Source: Mesorhizobium sp. RMAD-H1 (GTDB taxonomy: Bacteria > Pseudomonadota > Alphaproteobacteria > Rhizobiales > Rhizobiaceae). Taken from it: a stretch of 64,000 nucleotides of DNA. Made by a program: the position numbers and the translations under genes. A model generated the notes under the pieces. The model saw only the letters and a program-made list of their open reading frames with translations. It had not been told where the DNA came from and did not search any database. Positions 30,400-63,139 of the stretch are shown here, piece after piece; the stretch's first letter is position 1, and the number at the start of each line of letters is the position of its first letter. The stretch lies in the NCBI RefSeq assembly GCF_014191375.1, contig NZ_JACHWN010000002.1, positions 248,001 to 312,000 on the forward strand. The letters run 5' to 3'.

Positions 30400-31008
30400 C
30401 TATAAGACCAGCCGCATCAGCGGACGCCCCTCCTTGCGCACCGTCAGCTTCTGGAAACCGGCGGCCTCGAAGACGCGGGTCGAGCCGACGAAGAGACCGA
30501 CGGATTTCGCCTGCTTGGCTTGGTCCATCGGGCAAGCCTCCAGGACGCGCGCGCCGTTCGCCCGGGCGAAATCGATGCCTGCCGCAAGCAGCCCGTGGGA
30601 GATGCCCTTGCCGCGCGCGGACGATCTGGCGAAGAAGCACGAAACCGCCCAGACCGCCTCATCCTCCACCGGCGCATCGTCCAGGGGAGCGCTGACGCGG
30701 CCCTTGTTGTTCCACTCCGGCACGTCGGCGCGCGGGCCGACCTGCATCCAGCCGACGGCCTCGCCGCCGGCATAGGCCAGAATGCCGGGCGGAGGCCCCT
30801 CCTCCACGCGGCTGCGCATCAGTTCCTTTTTCTCGGGCCCCGACAGCGACTGCCGGAGCTTCGGCGGCAGCCGGAAATGCAGGCACCAGCAATTATAGCA
30901 GGCGCCGCGCGGGCCAAAGAGATCGGCGAAATCCGGCCAGCGTTCCGGCGTCAGCGGCGCCGTGGCGATTTCTATCGGTGCATGAAGGCGCATCGCGCTT
31001 GCCGCCAT
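30400..31008 (-). CDS. GNAT family N-acetyltransferase
   Basis: A 202-residue GNAT-like protein with an unusual N-terminal cysteine cluster [14 protein letters not shown] near residues 35-48. The acetyl-CoA loop reads [20 protein letters not shown] (R-G-K-G-I type) near 125-144, followed by [12 protein letters not shown]. Relatives with the CYCWCL-type pattern are annotated as acetyltransferases of unknown substrate. It is divergent from dinB, so the 50-base spacer between them must hold both promoters, including the LexA box. Confidence 0.82.
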
Positions 31009-31034: not shown

Positions 31035-31049
31035 GTTCTTCTTATGTTC
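31035..31049. promoter_or_regulatory. LexA (SOS) box ahead of dinB
   Basis: GTTC-TTCTTAT-GTTC is an exact match to the alphaproteobacterial LexA operator GTTC-N7-GTTC. It lies 10 bases upstream of the chosen dinB start and 27 upstream of the GNAT start on the other strand. Because the box would lie within coding sequence if dinB began at 31023, the later start is favoured. Confidence 0.85.
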
Positions 31050-33436: not shown

Positions 33437-36400
33437 TCAAACCAGCTCTACATCCACCACGCCCTTGATCGCCTTCATGGCGCTGGCGATCTGCGGGGTG
33501 ACGCGGTAGCGCTCGGGAAGCTCGATCTCCACCTCGCGCAGGCCGTTCTCCTTGATGACGATGAGGCTCACCTGCCCGTCGCCGCGCGTCGCGAGATGCG
33601 GGGCGATCTGCTTCAGCGCTTCGCTCGAGCGCAGGTAAAGCCGCAGGGCCTTCTGGATGCGGCTCGCCTCGTCCTCCAGCGATTGCACGGTCTGGATGCG
33701 CAGGCTGATCCCTTCCGGCCGGTTCTCGGCCGCCACCGTGATCACCACCGATTTGCCCGATTCGAGCAGGTCGCGATATTGCGCAAGCCCCTCGGAGAAC
33801 AGCACCGCTTCGAACTGCCCGGTCGCGTCCGACAGCTGCACGATGCCCATCTTGTTGCCGGTGCGCGTCTTGCGCTCCTGCCGGCTCGTCACCGTGCCGG
33901 CGAGGCGTCCCGCGCTCGCCCCGCGCTTGACCGCGATGGAGAAATCCGCCCAGCTCTGCACCCGCATCTTTTCCAGGACCGAACGGTATTCGTCCAGCGG
34001 ATGGGCGGAAAGATAGAAGCCCACCGCCTGGAACTCGCGATGCAGCTTCTCGGAAGGAAGCCAGGGCGCCACGACGGGAAGCTGCAATTTCTCCTTCGGT
34101 CCGCCGCCTAGGCCGAAGATATCCGCCTGGCCGCTGACCGCATTCTCCTGCGTGCGCTGCGCATGGCCCATGATGCGGTCGAGACCGGCGATCATCGCCT
34201 CCCGCTCCCGCTTGAAGCAATCGAGCGCGCCGGCATTGATCAGGCTTTCCAGAACCCGGCGGTTGACGATGCGCGGATCGATGCGCTCGCAGAAATCCTC
34301 AAGGCTTTCGTAGGGATTCTCCTGTCTTTTTTCGACAATGTGATCGACGGCGGCCTCGCCGACGCCCTTGATGGCGGCGAGCGAATAGAAAATCTTGTTT
34401 TCGCCCACTTCGAATGGGCGGAACGAGGTCATGACCGATGGCTGCACGACCTCGATGCCGAGGCGTTCCGCCTCGCGGCGGAAATCGTTGAGCTTGTCCG
34501 TGTTAGACATATCGTAGGTCATGGAGGCGGCGAGGAACTCGACCGGGAAATGCGCCTTCAGATAGGCCGTCTGGTAGGAGACGATGGCATAGGCGGCAGC
34601 GTGCGACTTGTTGAAGCCGTAGTCGGCGAATTTCGCAAGCAGGTCGAAGATCATGTTCGCCTGCGCCTTGCCGACGCCGCGCTCGACCGCGCCATCCACG
34701 AAGCGGATGCGCTGCTTGTCCATCTCCTCGCGGATCTTCTTGCCCATGGCGCGGCGCAAGAGATCCGCTTCACCGAGCGAATAGCCGGAAAGCTCCTGCG
34801 CGATCTGCATCACCTGTTCCTGATAGACGATGACGCCTTGTGTCTCCTTCACCAGGTGATCGATCTTGGGATGGATCGAGGCGATCTCCTCCTCGCCATG
34901 CTTGCGCGCATTATAGGTCGGGATGTTCTCCATCGGGCCGGGACGATAGAGCGCCACCAGCGCGATGATATCCTCGATGCGATCCGGCTTCATGCCGATC
35001 AGCGCCTTGCGCATGCCCGCGCTTTCCACCTGGAACACGCCGACCGTCTCGCCGCGCGACAGCATCTCATAGGTGAGCTGGTCGTCGAGCGGCAGGTTGG
35101 AGAGGTCGATCTCGATGCCCTTGCGGGCGATGAGCTTCACCGCCGTCTGCAACACCGTCAGCGTCTTCAGGCCGAGAAAGTCGAACTTGACCAGCCCCGC
35201 CTGCTCCACCCATTTCATGTTGAACTGGGTGACCGGCATGTCCGAGCGCGGATCGCGATACATCGGCACCAGTTCCGACAGTGGCCGGTCGCCGATGACG
35301 ATGCCCGCCGCGTGGGTCGAGGCATGGCGGTAGAGCCCTTCAAGTTTCAGGCCTATATCGAGAAGACGCCCGACCACCGGCTCCTTTTCGCGTTCCTCGA
35401 TGAGCTTCGGCTCGCCCTCGATCGCCTGGCCGAGCGTTACCGGATTGGCCGGGTTCTGCGGCACGAGCTTGCAGAGCCGGTCCACCTGGCCATAGGGCAT
35501 TTCGAGCACGCGGCCGACATCGCGCAGCACGGCGCGGGCCTGCAGCGTGCCGAAGGTGATGATCTGCGCCACCTGGTCGCGGCCATATTTGCCCTGCACG
35601 TAGCGGATGACCTCGTCGCGCCGGTCCTGGCAGAAATCGATGTCGAAGTCCGGCATCGACACGCGGTCGGGATTGAGGAAGCGCTCGAACAGCAGCGAGA
35701 AGCGCAAGGGATCGACGTCGGTGATCGTCAGGGCATAGGCGACGAGCGAGCCTGCGCCCGAGCCGCGGCCCGGCCCGACGGGAATGCCCTGCGCCTTCGC
35801 CCATTTGATGAAGTCCGACACGATCAGGAAGTAGCCGGGGAACTTCATCCGCGTGATGATGCCGATCTCATATTCGAGACGCTCGACATATTGCTCGCGC
35901 GTATAGCCCTCCGCCATCCCCACGGACTCGATACGCCGCTCGAGCCCCTCGCGCGCCTGGCGCGCCATCTCGTCGGCTTCCGCCTGGAGGGCGGCTTCCG
36001 GTTCCTCCGCATCGCCGGTGAAACGCGGCAGGATGGGCTTGCGGGTCTCGGGGTAAAAACAGCAGCGCCGCGCGATCTCGATCGTGTTCTCGAGCGCCTC
36101 GGGCAGGTCGGCGAAGAGCGCCGCCATCTCGGCCTGGCTCTTGAGATAATGATCAGGCGTCAGGCGACGACGCTCGTCGGAGGAAAGCAGCTGCCCATCC
36201 GCGATGGCGAGCAGCGCGTCATGCGCCTCGAAATCGGCGCTTTCGAGAAAAAAGGCCTCGTTGGTCGCCACCAGCGGCAGGGCATTCGAATAGGCGAGCT
36301 CGACCATGCGCGCCTCGATCATCCGGTCATAGCCGGCGGGGCGCTGCAGCTCGACATAGAGACGGTCGCCGAACAGGGCCTGAAGGTAGTGCAGGCGCTG

Positions 36401-36949
36401 CTGCGCGCGATCGCCCCGGTCGGCGGCAAGCGCACGGCCGATGGGCCCCAGCGCGCCGCCGGTCAGCGCGATGATCCCTTCCGAACGGCCCTCCAGCCAA
36501 CCCGCCTCGATATGGACGGGATCGCCCGGCGGCGTATCGAGATAGGAGCGGCTTACGAGCCGCACCAGATTGGCATACCCCTCCTCGGTGGCGGCGATCA
36601 ATACCACGGGGGCCAGCCCCAGCGCATCGCGCCTCGAGGCACTGCGGCTGTCGTCGCCGCTGTCGCCGAAGCTGATATCGAGCTGGCAGCCGACGATCGG
36701 CTGAACGCCATCCTTGACGGCCTTCTGGGCGAATTCCAGCGCCCCGAAAAGATTGTTGGTGTCGGTGATGGCAATGGCCGGCGCATTGTCCTTGACCGCG
36801 TGACCGATGATCTTGCCGATCTGCAGCGCACCCTCGAGCAGGGAATAGGCCGAATGGACCCTCAGATGGATGAAGCGCGGGCCGGATGTTCCATAGGCCC
36901 CGTTCAATTCACCCATGCCTGCCCGTGCTGTGCTGTCCGCCACTTTCAT
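33437..36949 (-). CDS. dnaE: DNA polymerase III subunit alpha
   Basis: An 1170-residue C-family replicative polymerase. The PHP domain is FIHLRVHSAYSLLEGALQIGKI at the start; the catalytic aspartates are in PDFDIDFCQDRRDEVI near residue 436-450; SGAGSLVAYALTITDVDPLRF is the palm, and the region EDIIALVALYRPGPMENIPTY, IREEMDKQRIRFVDGA and ADYGFNKSHAAAYAIVSYQTAY the fingers. An OB-fold follows (TSRQERKTRTGNKMGIVQLSD) plus a tau-binding C-terminus. The start is the ATG at 36949. Length and PHP indicate DnaE1, not the SOS-linked DnaE2. A 28-residue SOS-box peptide gene lies 124 bases upstream on the same strand. Confidence 0.98.
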   Translation of the reverse strand: MKVADSTARAGMGELNGAYGTSGPRFIHLRVHSAYSLLEGALQIGKIIGHAVKDNAPAIAITDTNNLFGALEFAQKAVKDGVQPIVGCQLDISFGDSGDDSRSASRRDALGLAPVVLIAATEEGYANLVRLVSRSYLDTPPGDPVHIEAGWLEGRSEGIIALTGGALGPIGRALAADRGDRAQQRLHYLQALFGDRLYVELQRPAGYDRMIEARMVELAYSNALPLVATNEAFFLESADFEAHDALLAIADGQLLSSDERRRLTPDHYLKSQAEMAALFADLPEALENTIEIARRCCFYPETRKPILPRFTGDAEEPEAALQAEADEMARQAREGLERRIESVGMAEGYTREQYVERLEYEIGIITRMKFPGYFLIVSDFIKWAKAQGIPVGPGRGSGAGSLVAYALTITDVDPLRFSLLFERFLNPDRVSMPDFDIDFCQDRRDEVIRYVQGKYGRDQVAQIITFGTLQARAVLRDVGRVLEMPYGQVDRLCKLVPQNPANPVTLGQAIEGEPKLIEEREKEPVVGRLLDIGLKLEGLYRHASTHAAGIVIGDRPLSELVPMYRDPRSDMPVTQFNMKWVEQAGLVKFDFLGLKTLTVLQTAVKLIARKGIEIDLSNLPLDDQLTYEMLSRGETVGVFQVESAGMRKALIGMKPDRIEDIIALVALYRPGPMENIPTYNARKHGEEEIASIHPKIDHLVKETQGVIVYQEQVMQIAQELSGYSLGEADLLRRAMGKKIREEMDKQRIRFVDGAVERGVGKAQANMIFDLLAKFADYGFNKSHAAAYAIVSYQTAYLKAHFPVEFLAASMTYDMSNTDKLNDFRREAERLGIEVVQPSVMTSFRPFEVGENKIFYSLAAIKGVGEAAVDHIVEKRQENPYESLEDFCERIDPRIVNRRVLESLINAGALDCFKREREAMIAGLDRIMGHAQRTQENAVSGQADIFGLGGGPKEKLQLPVVAPWLPSEKLHREFQAVGFYLSAHPLDEYRSVLEKMRVQSWADFSIAVKRGASAGRLAGTVTSRQERKTRTGNKMGIVQLSDATGQFEAVLFSEGLAQYRDLLESGKSVVITVAAENRPEGISLRIQTVQSLEDEASRIQKALRLYLRSSEALKQIAPHLATRGDGQVSLIVIKENGLREVEIELPERYRVTPQIASAMKAIKGVVDVELV

Positions 36950-37031
36950 TCCCTGACTTTCGCATCAGACGACTCTCGGCCGCCTTTGCGTCAGTCTTAG
37001 GGATCGTGCGCGGCATGTCCAGACAAAGCCG

Positions 37032-37047
37032 CACCGGAAGGCCGGTG
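37032..37047 (-). terminator. Weak hairpin between the 28-aa gene and dnaE
   Basis: On the minus strand CACCGG-CCTT-CCGGTG forms a 6-bp stem with 4-base loop, followed by CGGCTTTGTC, with only a poor U-tract. It lies 26 bases downstream of the 28-aa gene stop and could partly separate it from dnaE. A TTGACC just before it may instead be a -35 element of a dnaE promoter. Confidence 0.35.
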
Positions 37048-37073
37048 GTCAACAGCTCTGCCGGACGGGAGGC

Positions 37074-37160
37074 TCAGATCGCGCTGACCCAGATCGCAAA
37101 AGTGGCGATAAACAGGCTGACGGAAACGAAGGACAAGACGTCGTGGACAAGATCGGTCAT
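37074..37160 (-). CDS. 28-aa membrane peptide under an SOS box
   Basis: The product is MTDLVHDVLSFVSVSLFIAT followed by FAIWVSAI: a short N-terminus with two acidic residues and then about 18 hydrophobic residues, one membrane helix. The start has a near-perfect ribosome site (AGAGGAG, seven bases before ATG). A LexA box, GTTC-N7-GTTC, lies 38 bases upstream with a CTTGAC -35-like element beside it. The size, single helix and SOS control match the Caulobacter division inhibitor SidA (29 residues). Sequence homology cannot be shown by eye. It is followed by dnaE on the same strand. It is too short for normal gene callers. Confidence 0.65.
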   Translation of the reverse strand: MTDLVHDVLSFVSVSLFIATFAIWVSAI

Positions 37161-37197
37161 GATTAAACTCCTCTATGTTCGCGTATGTTTATCTTTT

Positions 37198-37212
37198 GTT
37201 CCAATTTTGTTC
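37198..37212. promoter_or_regulatory. LexA (SOS) box of the 28-aa gene
   Basis: GTTC-CAATTTT-GTTC on the plus strand (GAAC-N7-GAAC on the minus strand) matches the alphaproteobacterial LexA operator exactly. It is 38 bases upstream of the 28-aa start, beside CTTGAC at 37217-37222 on the minus strand, so a bound LexA would cover the promoter. Confidence 0.85.
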
Positions 37213-37459
37213 CAAAGTCAAGCATGTTTTCCCCGCTGTTTTATGCCCATGGTTTTCAAAACGTTAATGGATGCGAGGCATTTACGGCTGCCGATAAGCT
37301 CCTCGCCGGGATCTCGTCGCCGATGGTTTTATTCCGCTGCCCGTAAGCTCCTCGCGGTCTGAATTCGACCGCTCGTCGCTGGCAGCGGGGGATCGTTACC
37401 ACGCCCGCTTTCCGCGTCTGGCCATTTGAGAAAGAACACCCCGAACCGGGAGATGGGAA

Positions 37460-62198: not shown

Positions 62199-62438
62199 AT
62201 GAACATGGAATCGCCCTGCATCCTCGTCTGCTCGATAGACGCCAAGACCGGCTACTGCTTCGGTTGCGGCCGCACGATGGACGAGATCAGCGCCTGGACG
62301 ATGATGTCGCCGGAGCGTCGCCGCGAGATCGCGGCCGCGCTTCCGGCACGCCTCGAAACGGTGGAGCGCAAGCCCAGGCGAGAGACCCGCCGGGCTCGCA
62401 TGGCGCGCGAAAGGCTCGCACAGGGGAACGATGCATGA
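62199..62438 (+). CDS. DUF1289 family protein
   Basis: A 79-residue protein with four cysteines in the pattern [31 protein letters not shown], the zinc-binding DUF1289 signature. The C-terminus is basic ([18 protein letters not shown]). Function unknown; the family is broadly found beside unrelated genes. It starts ATG 62199 (MNMESPCI) and overlaps the next ATG by four bases. Confidence 0.9.
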
Positions 62439-63139
62439 ACCGCCTTTTCTGGATCATCGTCGCGGTCGTCGGCGCCATCATCCTGCTGCTGATGGCCAAT
62501 AATGACAGCGGCAGCACGCTAGGGCTTGCCAATGACGCCTTCGCCCGCGCCGCCTATCTCGGCATCTGGGGCATCGTCATCGCCGCAGGGTTCCTCGGCT
62601 CAGGCATCAGGCTCGGCGATTTCGCCCGCAACATCGCCATCTGGGTCGTCATCATCCTCGCCCTCGTCGCCGGCTATCAGTATCGTTACGAGCTGCAGGA
62701 CGTCGCAAACCGCATCACGGCCGGCCTCGTCCCCGGCAGCGCCATGTCGAACAGGGCGAGCGACGGCAGCCTGACGGTCACGCTCGCCAAGAGCGCCAAC
62801 GGGCATTTTCAGGTGAACGGCAGGGTCAATGGCGCGCGCGTGCCGTTCCTGGTCGATACCGGCGCCTCGATGATCATTCTCTCGAGCGATGATGCAAGAC
62901 GCGCCGGGATCGACACCGACAGCCTCTCCTATTCGGTTCCGATCATGACCGCCAATGGCAGCACCAGCGCCGCGGCGGTCCGGCTTAAAACGCTGCAGAT
63001 CGGCGATATCGAGCGTCATGATATCCGCGCGCTGGTCGCGCAGGACAGCCGGCTGAGCGGCAGCCTGCTCGGCATGAATTTCCTCGATACGCTGCGCGGA
63101 TTTTCCGTCCGCGGCGACGAACTGGTCCTGTCGGATTGA
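62435..63139 (+). CDS. Retropepsin-like aspartic protease, membrane-anchored (TIGR02281 type)
   Basis: A 234-residue protein. Two to three membrane helices occupy residues 3-20, 37-53 and 65-79; the C-terminal domain has the active-site motif [23 protein letters not shown] near residues 139-161 and ending [24 protein letters not shown]. One catalytic Asp-Thr-Gly is present, so it should act as a dimer. Peptidase targets are unknown. It starts inside the DUF1289 stop. The C-terminal LVLSD is intact. Confidence 0.9.

Follow-up and report, generated by a model that had tools for sequence, protein, structure and literature searches.

A 28-codon gene with a LexA-type operator upstream of dnaE in Mesorhizobium probably encodes a divergent SidA ortholog

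What is the very short reading frame that precedes dnaE, next to a LexA-type box, in Mesorhizobium sp. RMAD-H1? The initial annotation of this DNA likened it to SidA of Caulobacter, an SOS inhibitor of 29 aa that resides in the inner membrane and acts on FtsW (PMC4211646). All coordinates refer to the window, i.e. the whole analyzed stretch of 64,000 nucleotides. The relevant features are as follows.

33437..36949, minus strand: dnaE, DNA polymerase III alpha subunit (replicative), the downstream neighbor, assigned with family models
37032..37047, minus strand: hairpin CACCGG-CCTT-CCGGTG with six perfect pairs, between the peptide ORF and dnaE
37074..37160, minus strand: ORF of the putative SidA-type single-helix peptide, with an ATG start, 28 aa (MTDLVHDVLSFVSVSLFIATFAIWVSAI) and a stop
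37168..37174, minus strand: ribosome-binding site AGAGGAG, read from the sequence
37198..37212, no strand assigned: LexA-type operator, an exact GTTC-N7-GTTC (GAAC-N7-GAAC in the direction of the peptide gene), found as a motif match
37216..37221, minus strand: hexamer TTGACT, resembling a -35 element, immediately before the operator, read from the sequence

The minus-strand ORF of 28 aa, its ribosome site, the single hydrophobic stretch and the exact box are all as initially annotated; only the spacing between operator and ATG, given there as 38 bases, has to be corrected to 37. The hydrophobic stretch covers residues 8–26 of the peptide (mean Kyte-Doolittle value of 2.14, based on hydropathy only). 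AGAGGAG, the exact box and TTGACT would together form a compact LexA-type promoter, in which TTGACT may act as a promoter element. A generic sigma-70 scan found no full promoter. Many of the printed relatives have a purine-rich site resembling AGAGGAG before the peptide gene and TTGAC at the equivalent place (both seen by eye, uncounted). The box alone is not significant within the window: chance would give 1.37 exact boxes where three are present, and at least three occur in 16 of 100 shuffles. GTTC-N7-GTTC is also found upstream of recA in the same genome (locus L057).

As initially annotated, the downstream neighbor is dnaE. Its product scores 1516 bits with the replicative model PRK05673 (cut-off 1002). 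The possibility that the neighbor is dnaE2 was rejected, as the error-prone model PRK05672 gives 612 bits, below its cut-off of 939. The 124-nt spacer between the peptide gene and dnaE (36950-37073, minus strand) folds better than its shuffled versions (z -3.3). It contains the hairpin, which has no T-run, and a terminator scan found no terminator. Going upstream from the peptide gene, more than 1 kb passes before the next large frame that matches a family, an L,D-transpeptidase gene. The window peptide has no match in Pfam, NCBIfam or PHROGs, and plasmid records gave no match either.

We then asked how far the frame and the box are conserved. Searched with the window peptide, 35 of 61 relatives gave a match at E<=10. 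Profile A1, built from 20 of the peptides from relatives, found a match in 372 of the family's 394 genomes at E<=1 (chance hits included) and in about 311, counted by eye, at E<=1e-3. Length and operator were counted in 98 distinct loci (100 loci minus two duplicates, L076 = L013 and L299 = L089). This set was compiled from the peptide search and the profile searches, without 18 order-level loci and with 40 further places, about one per genus. It was drawn from the strongest matches listed, so that the figures favor clear members; three chance hits (L025, L028 and L030) were kept in the counts. Exactly 28 aa are encoded at 90 of the 98 loci. An exact box lies within 120 nt upstream at 89 of them, and a box with at most one mismatch at 93; among 2729 control windows taken from these loci, 4 contain a box. 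The pN/pS ratio is 0.17 over 324 pairs of peptide genes at >=75% identity. Relative to loci L001, L003 and L061, the window gene shows 7, 5 and 9 synonymous changes, respectively, and no nonsynonymous ones. M1, D7, S13 and F17 are invariant in the 20-row alignment. Because length, box position and pN/pS hold across the 98 loci, we consider the peptide gene to be real and its LexA-type operator conserved; the amino acid sequence, judged by these substitutions, is under purifying selection. A chance ORF was rejected on the same length, box and selection data. The refuting outcome named in the initial annotation, a frame not conserved in relatives and lacking synonymous bias, did not occur.

We then took the region before dnaE from ten genomes linked to Caulobacter or Phenylobacterium, one of them a MAG labeled CAULO1. 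A peptide of 29-30 aa lies directly upstream of dnaE in all ten, preceded by an exact GTTC-N7-GTTC in nine; the box of C. hibisci has one mismatch. All ten peptides (nine distinct) exceed the cut-off of 35 of the NCBIfam SidA model NF033228, with 57.5-74 bits, and hence it is SidA itself that lies directly upstream of dnaE. The published tags for sidA (CCNA_02004; PMC10769358) and dnaE (CC1926; PMC1839093) belong to two different tag series and fit this arrangement.

The sequence link between the rhizobial peptide and SidA is visible mainly at the level of profiles. The search space, 384.8 kb of Caulobacteraceae DNA, comprised 7275 ORFs when nested starts are counted and 3286 distinct ends. 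Three rows of the profile order19 do not belong to the window's order, so the ranking was repeated with the 16 rows that do. With this 16-row profile, 27 SidA frames (each nested start counted separately) precede the first unrelated ORF; the ten SidA loci lie at E 0.0088 to 1.2, with L230 below that first unrelated ORF (0.77). A 92-row profile of the window's set places 21 SidA frames first among the 7275 ORFs, with the ten SidA loci at E 0.33 to 18 and L226, L227 and L230 below unrelated ORFs. The top single match of both profiles is the SidA peptide of another Caulobacter contig (L207). Aligning SidA with profile A2 by hhalign resulted in a probability of 85.9% (P 5.2e-6) over 23 columns without gaps, and gapless scores of six SidA peptides are 2.1 to 3.0 sd above those of block-shuffled versions. 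A search of the ten whole Caulobacteraceae genomes with profile A3 found the sidA place in only four, at E 0.02-0.21, and in one of them it was not the best match. Homology to SidA is found by profile, whereas single E-values and the whole-genome search are weak. The window peptide has no match to NF033228 even at E<=10, and none of its 61 relatives passes the cut-off of that model; the rhizobial peptide would therefore be a divergent ortholog outside NF033228 and is not a member by the NCBI definition.

The surroundings of the gene show a second link. An ABC ATPase gene lies upstream at many loci; its nearest NCBIfam model is LolD (as a fragment). Both lolD upstream and dnaE downstream are found in 6 of the 10 Caulobacteraceae and in 23 of 30 order- and class-level loci, the latter chosen for having dnaE (L098, L106, L109 and the earlier copies of L327-L331 are not among them). 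Within the main set, lolD is upstream at 54 of the 98 loci, where many stretches cover only about 500 bases upstream. Taken together, lolD and dnaE are both found at 27 of these loci; a further 27 have only lolD, 24 (including the window) only dnaE, and the last 20 show neither, so that at least one is present at 78. Where tested, dnaE is next on the same strand at 53 of 83 loci and on the opposite strand at none. Among class-wide matches, 20 of 24 new loci were inspected (L344-L347 were left out): 15 combine a downstream dnaE with an exact upstream box, 4 of these being rows of the query profile, and 5 have neither. Both dnaE and the box are still present at class-wide matches as weak as E 0.02 and 0.1. 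The ancestral order is likely to have been lolD-sidA-dnaE, as far as can be read from present gene orders. The resemblance to SidA, initially proposed from length, box and helix, now extends to descent: common ancestry is supported by profile matches from both directions, by the shared lolD-peptide-dnaE order and by the shared position of the operator.

Proximity to dnaE also suggests a different role, that of an upstream ORF or leader tuning dnaE expression during SOS. Such a role would fit the same-strand position of dnaE, which follows after a structured spacer of 124 nt, and it resembles that of sORF25 of Sinorhizobium meliloti, a possible upstream ORF in the 5'-UTR of dnaE1 that may or may not be the same gene (PMC10117765). 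However, it is the amino acid sequence that is under purifying selection, and at the 27 loci with lolD only (no dnaE within the fetched flank of at least 450 nt) the peptide retains its box. Conversely, the 700 nt preceding the DnaE match contain no exact box in 15 of 16 genomes examined, and in the remaining one box and peptide both occur there; 15 of the 16 were picked for a peptide copy away from dnaE. We therefore regard a leader function as very unlikely. The distribution of boxes suggests that the operator goes with the peptide and not with dnaE, and that linkage to dnaE, though ancestral, is dispensable. A role dependent on dnaE was rejected, as the box stays with the peptide where dnaE is elsewhere. 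The suggestion in the initial annotation that an SOS transcript may also reach dnaE can accordingly apply locally at most; as a general rule it fails, given that the box is kept by peptides parted from dnaE.

Based on these data, we propose that the 28-aa ORF is, in all probability, a divergent SidA ortholog: a LexA-repressed membrane peptide that would delay septation through FtsW/FtsI/FtsN. In the undamaged cell, LexA on GTTC-N7-GTTC beside the -35 element would keep the peptide gene silent. Upon DNA damage, RecA would be activated and LexA cleaved, and the peptide would be made. It would then insert in the inner membrane as one helix and keep FtsW/FtsI/FtsN, which act late in division, in an inactive state, and septation would be held back until repair. 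The sequence data themselves show the ORF, the purifying selection on it, the conserved operator, the common ancestry with SidA and the shared locus; it is by orthology that we infer translation, SOS induction, membrane insertion, the division block and the FtsW complex as target.

Membrane peptides of this size under SOS control can act in another way, too. TisB of E. coli is likewise a LexA-controlled single-helix peptide, of 29 aa. A second example is DinQ, an SOS-regulated toxic single transmembrane peptide of the same species (PMC3567139). Compared by description only, both are, like the window peptide, small SOS-controlled peptides with a single helix; they themselves are toxin-type peptides with antisense RNAs and an inhibitory leader. 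A peptide of their kind would damage the proton-motive force and slow growth without binding the divisome. We consider this quite improbable for the rhizobial peptide, which sequence and locus tie to SidA and whose gene has a short leader. Moreover, the invariance of D7, S13 and F17 in 20 rows and the length of 28 aa held in 90 of 98 loci suggest a specific partner.

Whether SidA descent also implies the SidA target is a separate matter. Identity between the window peptide and one Caulobacter SidA amounts to 6 of 28 residues. The C-terminal halves differ: the rhizobial peptide lacks the FVWMMC of SidA and may thus make contact through a different surface. Rhizobia grow at the pole. A search for FtsW/RodA-family proteins found one each in the window's genome and in a further genome (G020), and two each in two Caulobacteraceae genomes. 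These differences would be compatible with a peptide that descends from SidA but has come, in rhizobia, to act on another target or to have another output, for instance at the pole where the cell grows. Nevertheless, the sole remaining FtsW/RodA member is still an obvious candidate target, and operator, place and size are unchanged; we thus judge a changed target or output unlikely, and retain delayed septation through the FtsW complex as the preferred reading.

Among known systems, SidA of Caulobacter (NF033228; CCNA_02004) is the closest: it shares the size of 28-29 aa, one hydrophobic helix, GTTC-N7-GTTC and the place directly upstream of dnaE, and it differs in the low identity noted above and in that its model does not recognize the rhizobial peptide. 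The remaining systems were compared by description only. DidA of Caulobacter is also a DNA-damage-induced small membrane division inhibitor (PMC4211646); unlike the window peptide, it is 71 aa long, is driven by DriD and not by LexA, and binds FtsN. SOS likewise induces the division inhibitors YneA of Bacillus, SosA of Staphylococcus and SulA of E. coli. YneA interacts with FtsW (PMC13396833), SulA acts on FtsZ, and yneA is described as unrelated to sulA and sidA (PMC4211646). In S. meliloti, the Ribo-seq study that notes sORFs such as sORF25 as possible upstream ORFs also lists SEP6, a peptide of <30 aa with a membrane helix and reportedly conserved in Hyphomicrobiales (PMC10117765). Going by these descriptions, sORF25, with its position in the dnaE1 5'-UTR, or SEP6 might be the rhizobial SidA-type gene. 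Excerpts retrieved by literature searches included no paper on a SidA homolog in rhizobia and no account of how rhizobia hold division during DNA damage. What appears to be new here is a wide extension of the range of a known kind of peptide, SidA.

If the proposal is true, the SOS division checkpoint would be older and more widespread than present annotation suggests, and SidA would become a class-wide family rather than a local curiosity. Some ninety natural variants would serve for mapping the divisome contact. The case would also illustrate how a core SOS gene can escape notice by having 28 codons and falling outside the present SidA model. With a defined 28-codon gene and a conserved operator in most genomes of the family, the proposal is directly testable.

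SidA-like peptides also occur away from this arrangement. At nine further loci (L232-L240) eight have no box within 180 nt, and L239 has one. Four of those without a LexA box (L232, L237, L238 and L240) have surroundings that gave us the impression of being phage-like; the other four (L233, L234, L235 and L236) come from two genomes of one genus (G001 and G003). Scanning viral contigs with two neighboring proteins, one with a DUF3799 PDDEXK-like domain, gave 21 loci on 19 contigs. SidA-like peptides (E<=1e-8) are encoded at seven of these loci on six contigs (L300, L301, L302, L303, L316/L318 on one contig, and L317), where L300 and L317 match partly by construction, their peptides being in the profile, and the other four contigs are independent of that. 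None of the seven has a box within 150 nt upstream. Several of the viral or phage-region peptides, such as MRDLLHDIASFVAVSTFIATFAVWAGYLAEKV, are encoded upstream of a gene for a DUF3799 PDDEXK-like protein. A search of annotated phage records with one prophage peptide produced one weak, irrelevant match only. Judging by their likeness to SidA, the phage peptides are possible division inhibitors. The kil gene of lambda offers a model for a phage-encoded role, and assigning them a similar one is only a guess by analogy. More broadly, and tentatively, SidA may be no Caulobacter speciality but the ancestral SOS division checkpoint of Alphaproteobacteria, located between lolD and dnaE and unrecognized by current models in most of the class, of which prophages would have captured LexA-independent copies that stop host division; we give this extended scenario slightly less than an even chance.

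The two other exact boxes of the window differ in their surroundings. One (31035-31049, minus strand) has TTGACA upstream and precedes by 26 bases the ATG of the gene at 30400-31008 (minus strand), which codes for a GNAT acetyltransferase and is located about 2.4 kb beyond dnaE; from this placement, the gene is likely to be another SOS gene. The other (62426-62440, minus strand) falls within a plus-strand frame of 291 aa (62264-63139) and is probably due to chance. Across genome G000, the exact GTTC-N7-GTTC occurs 136 times, compared with 69 for the pattern read backwards.
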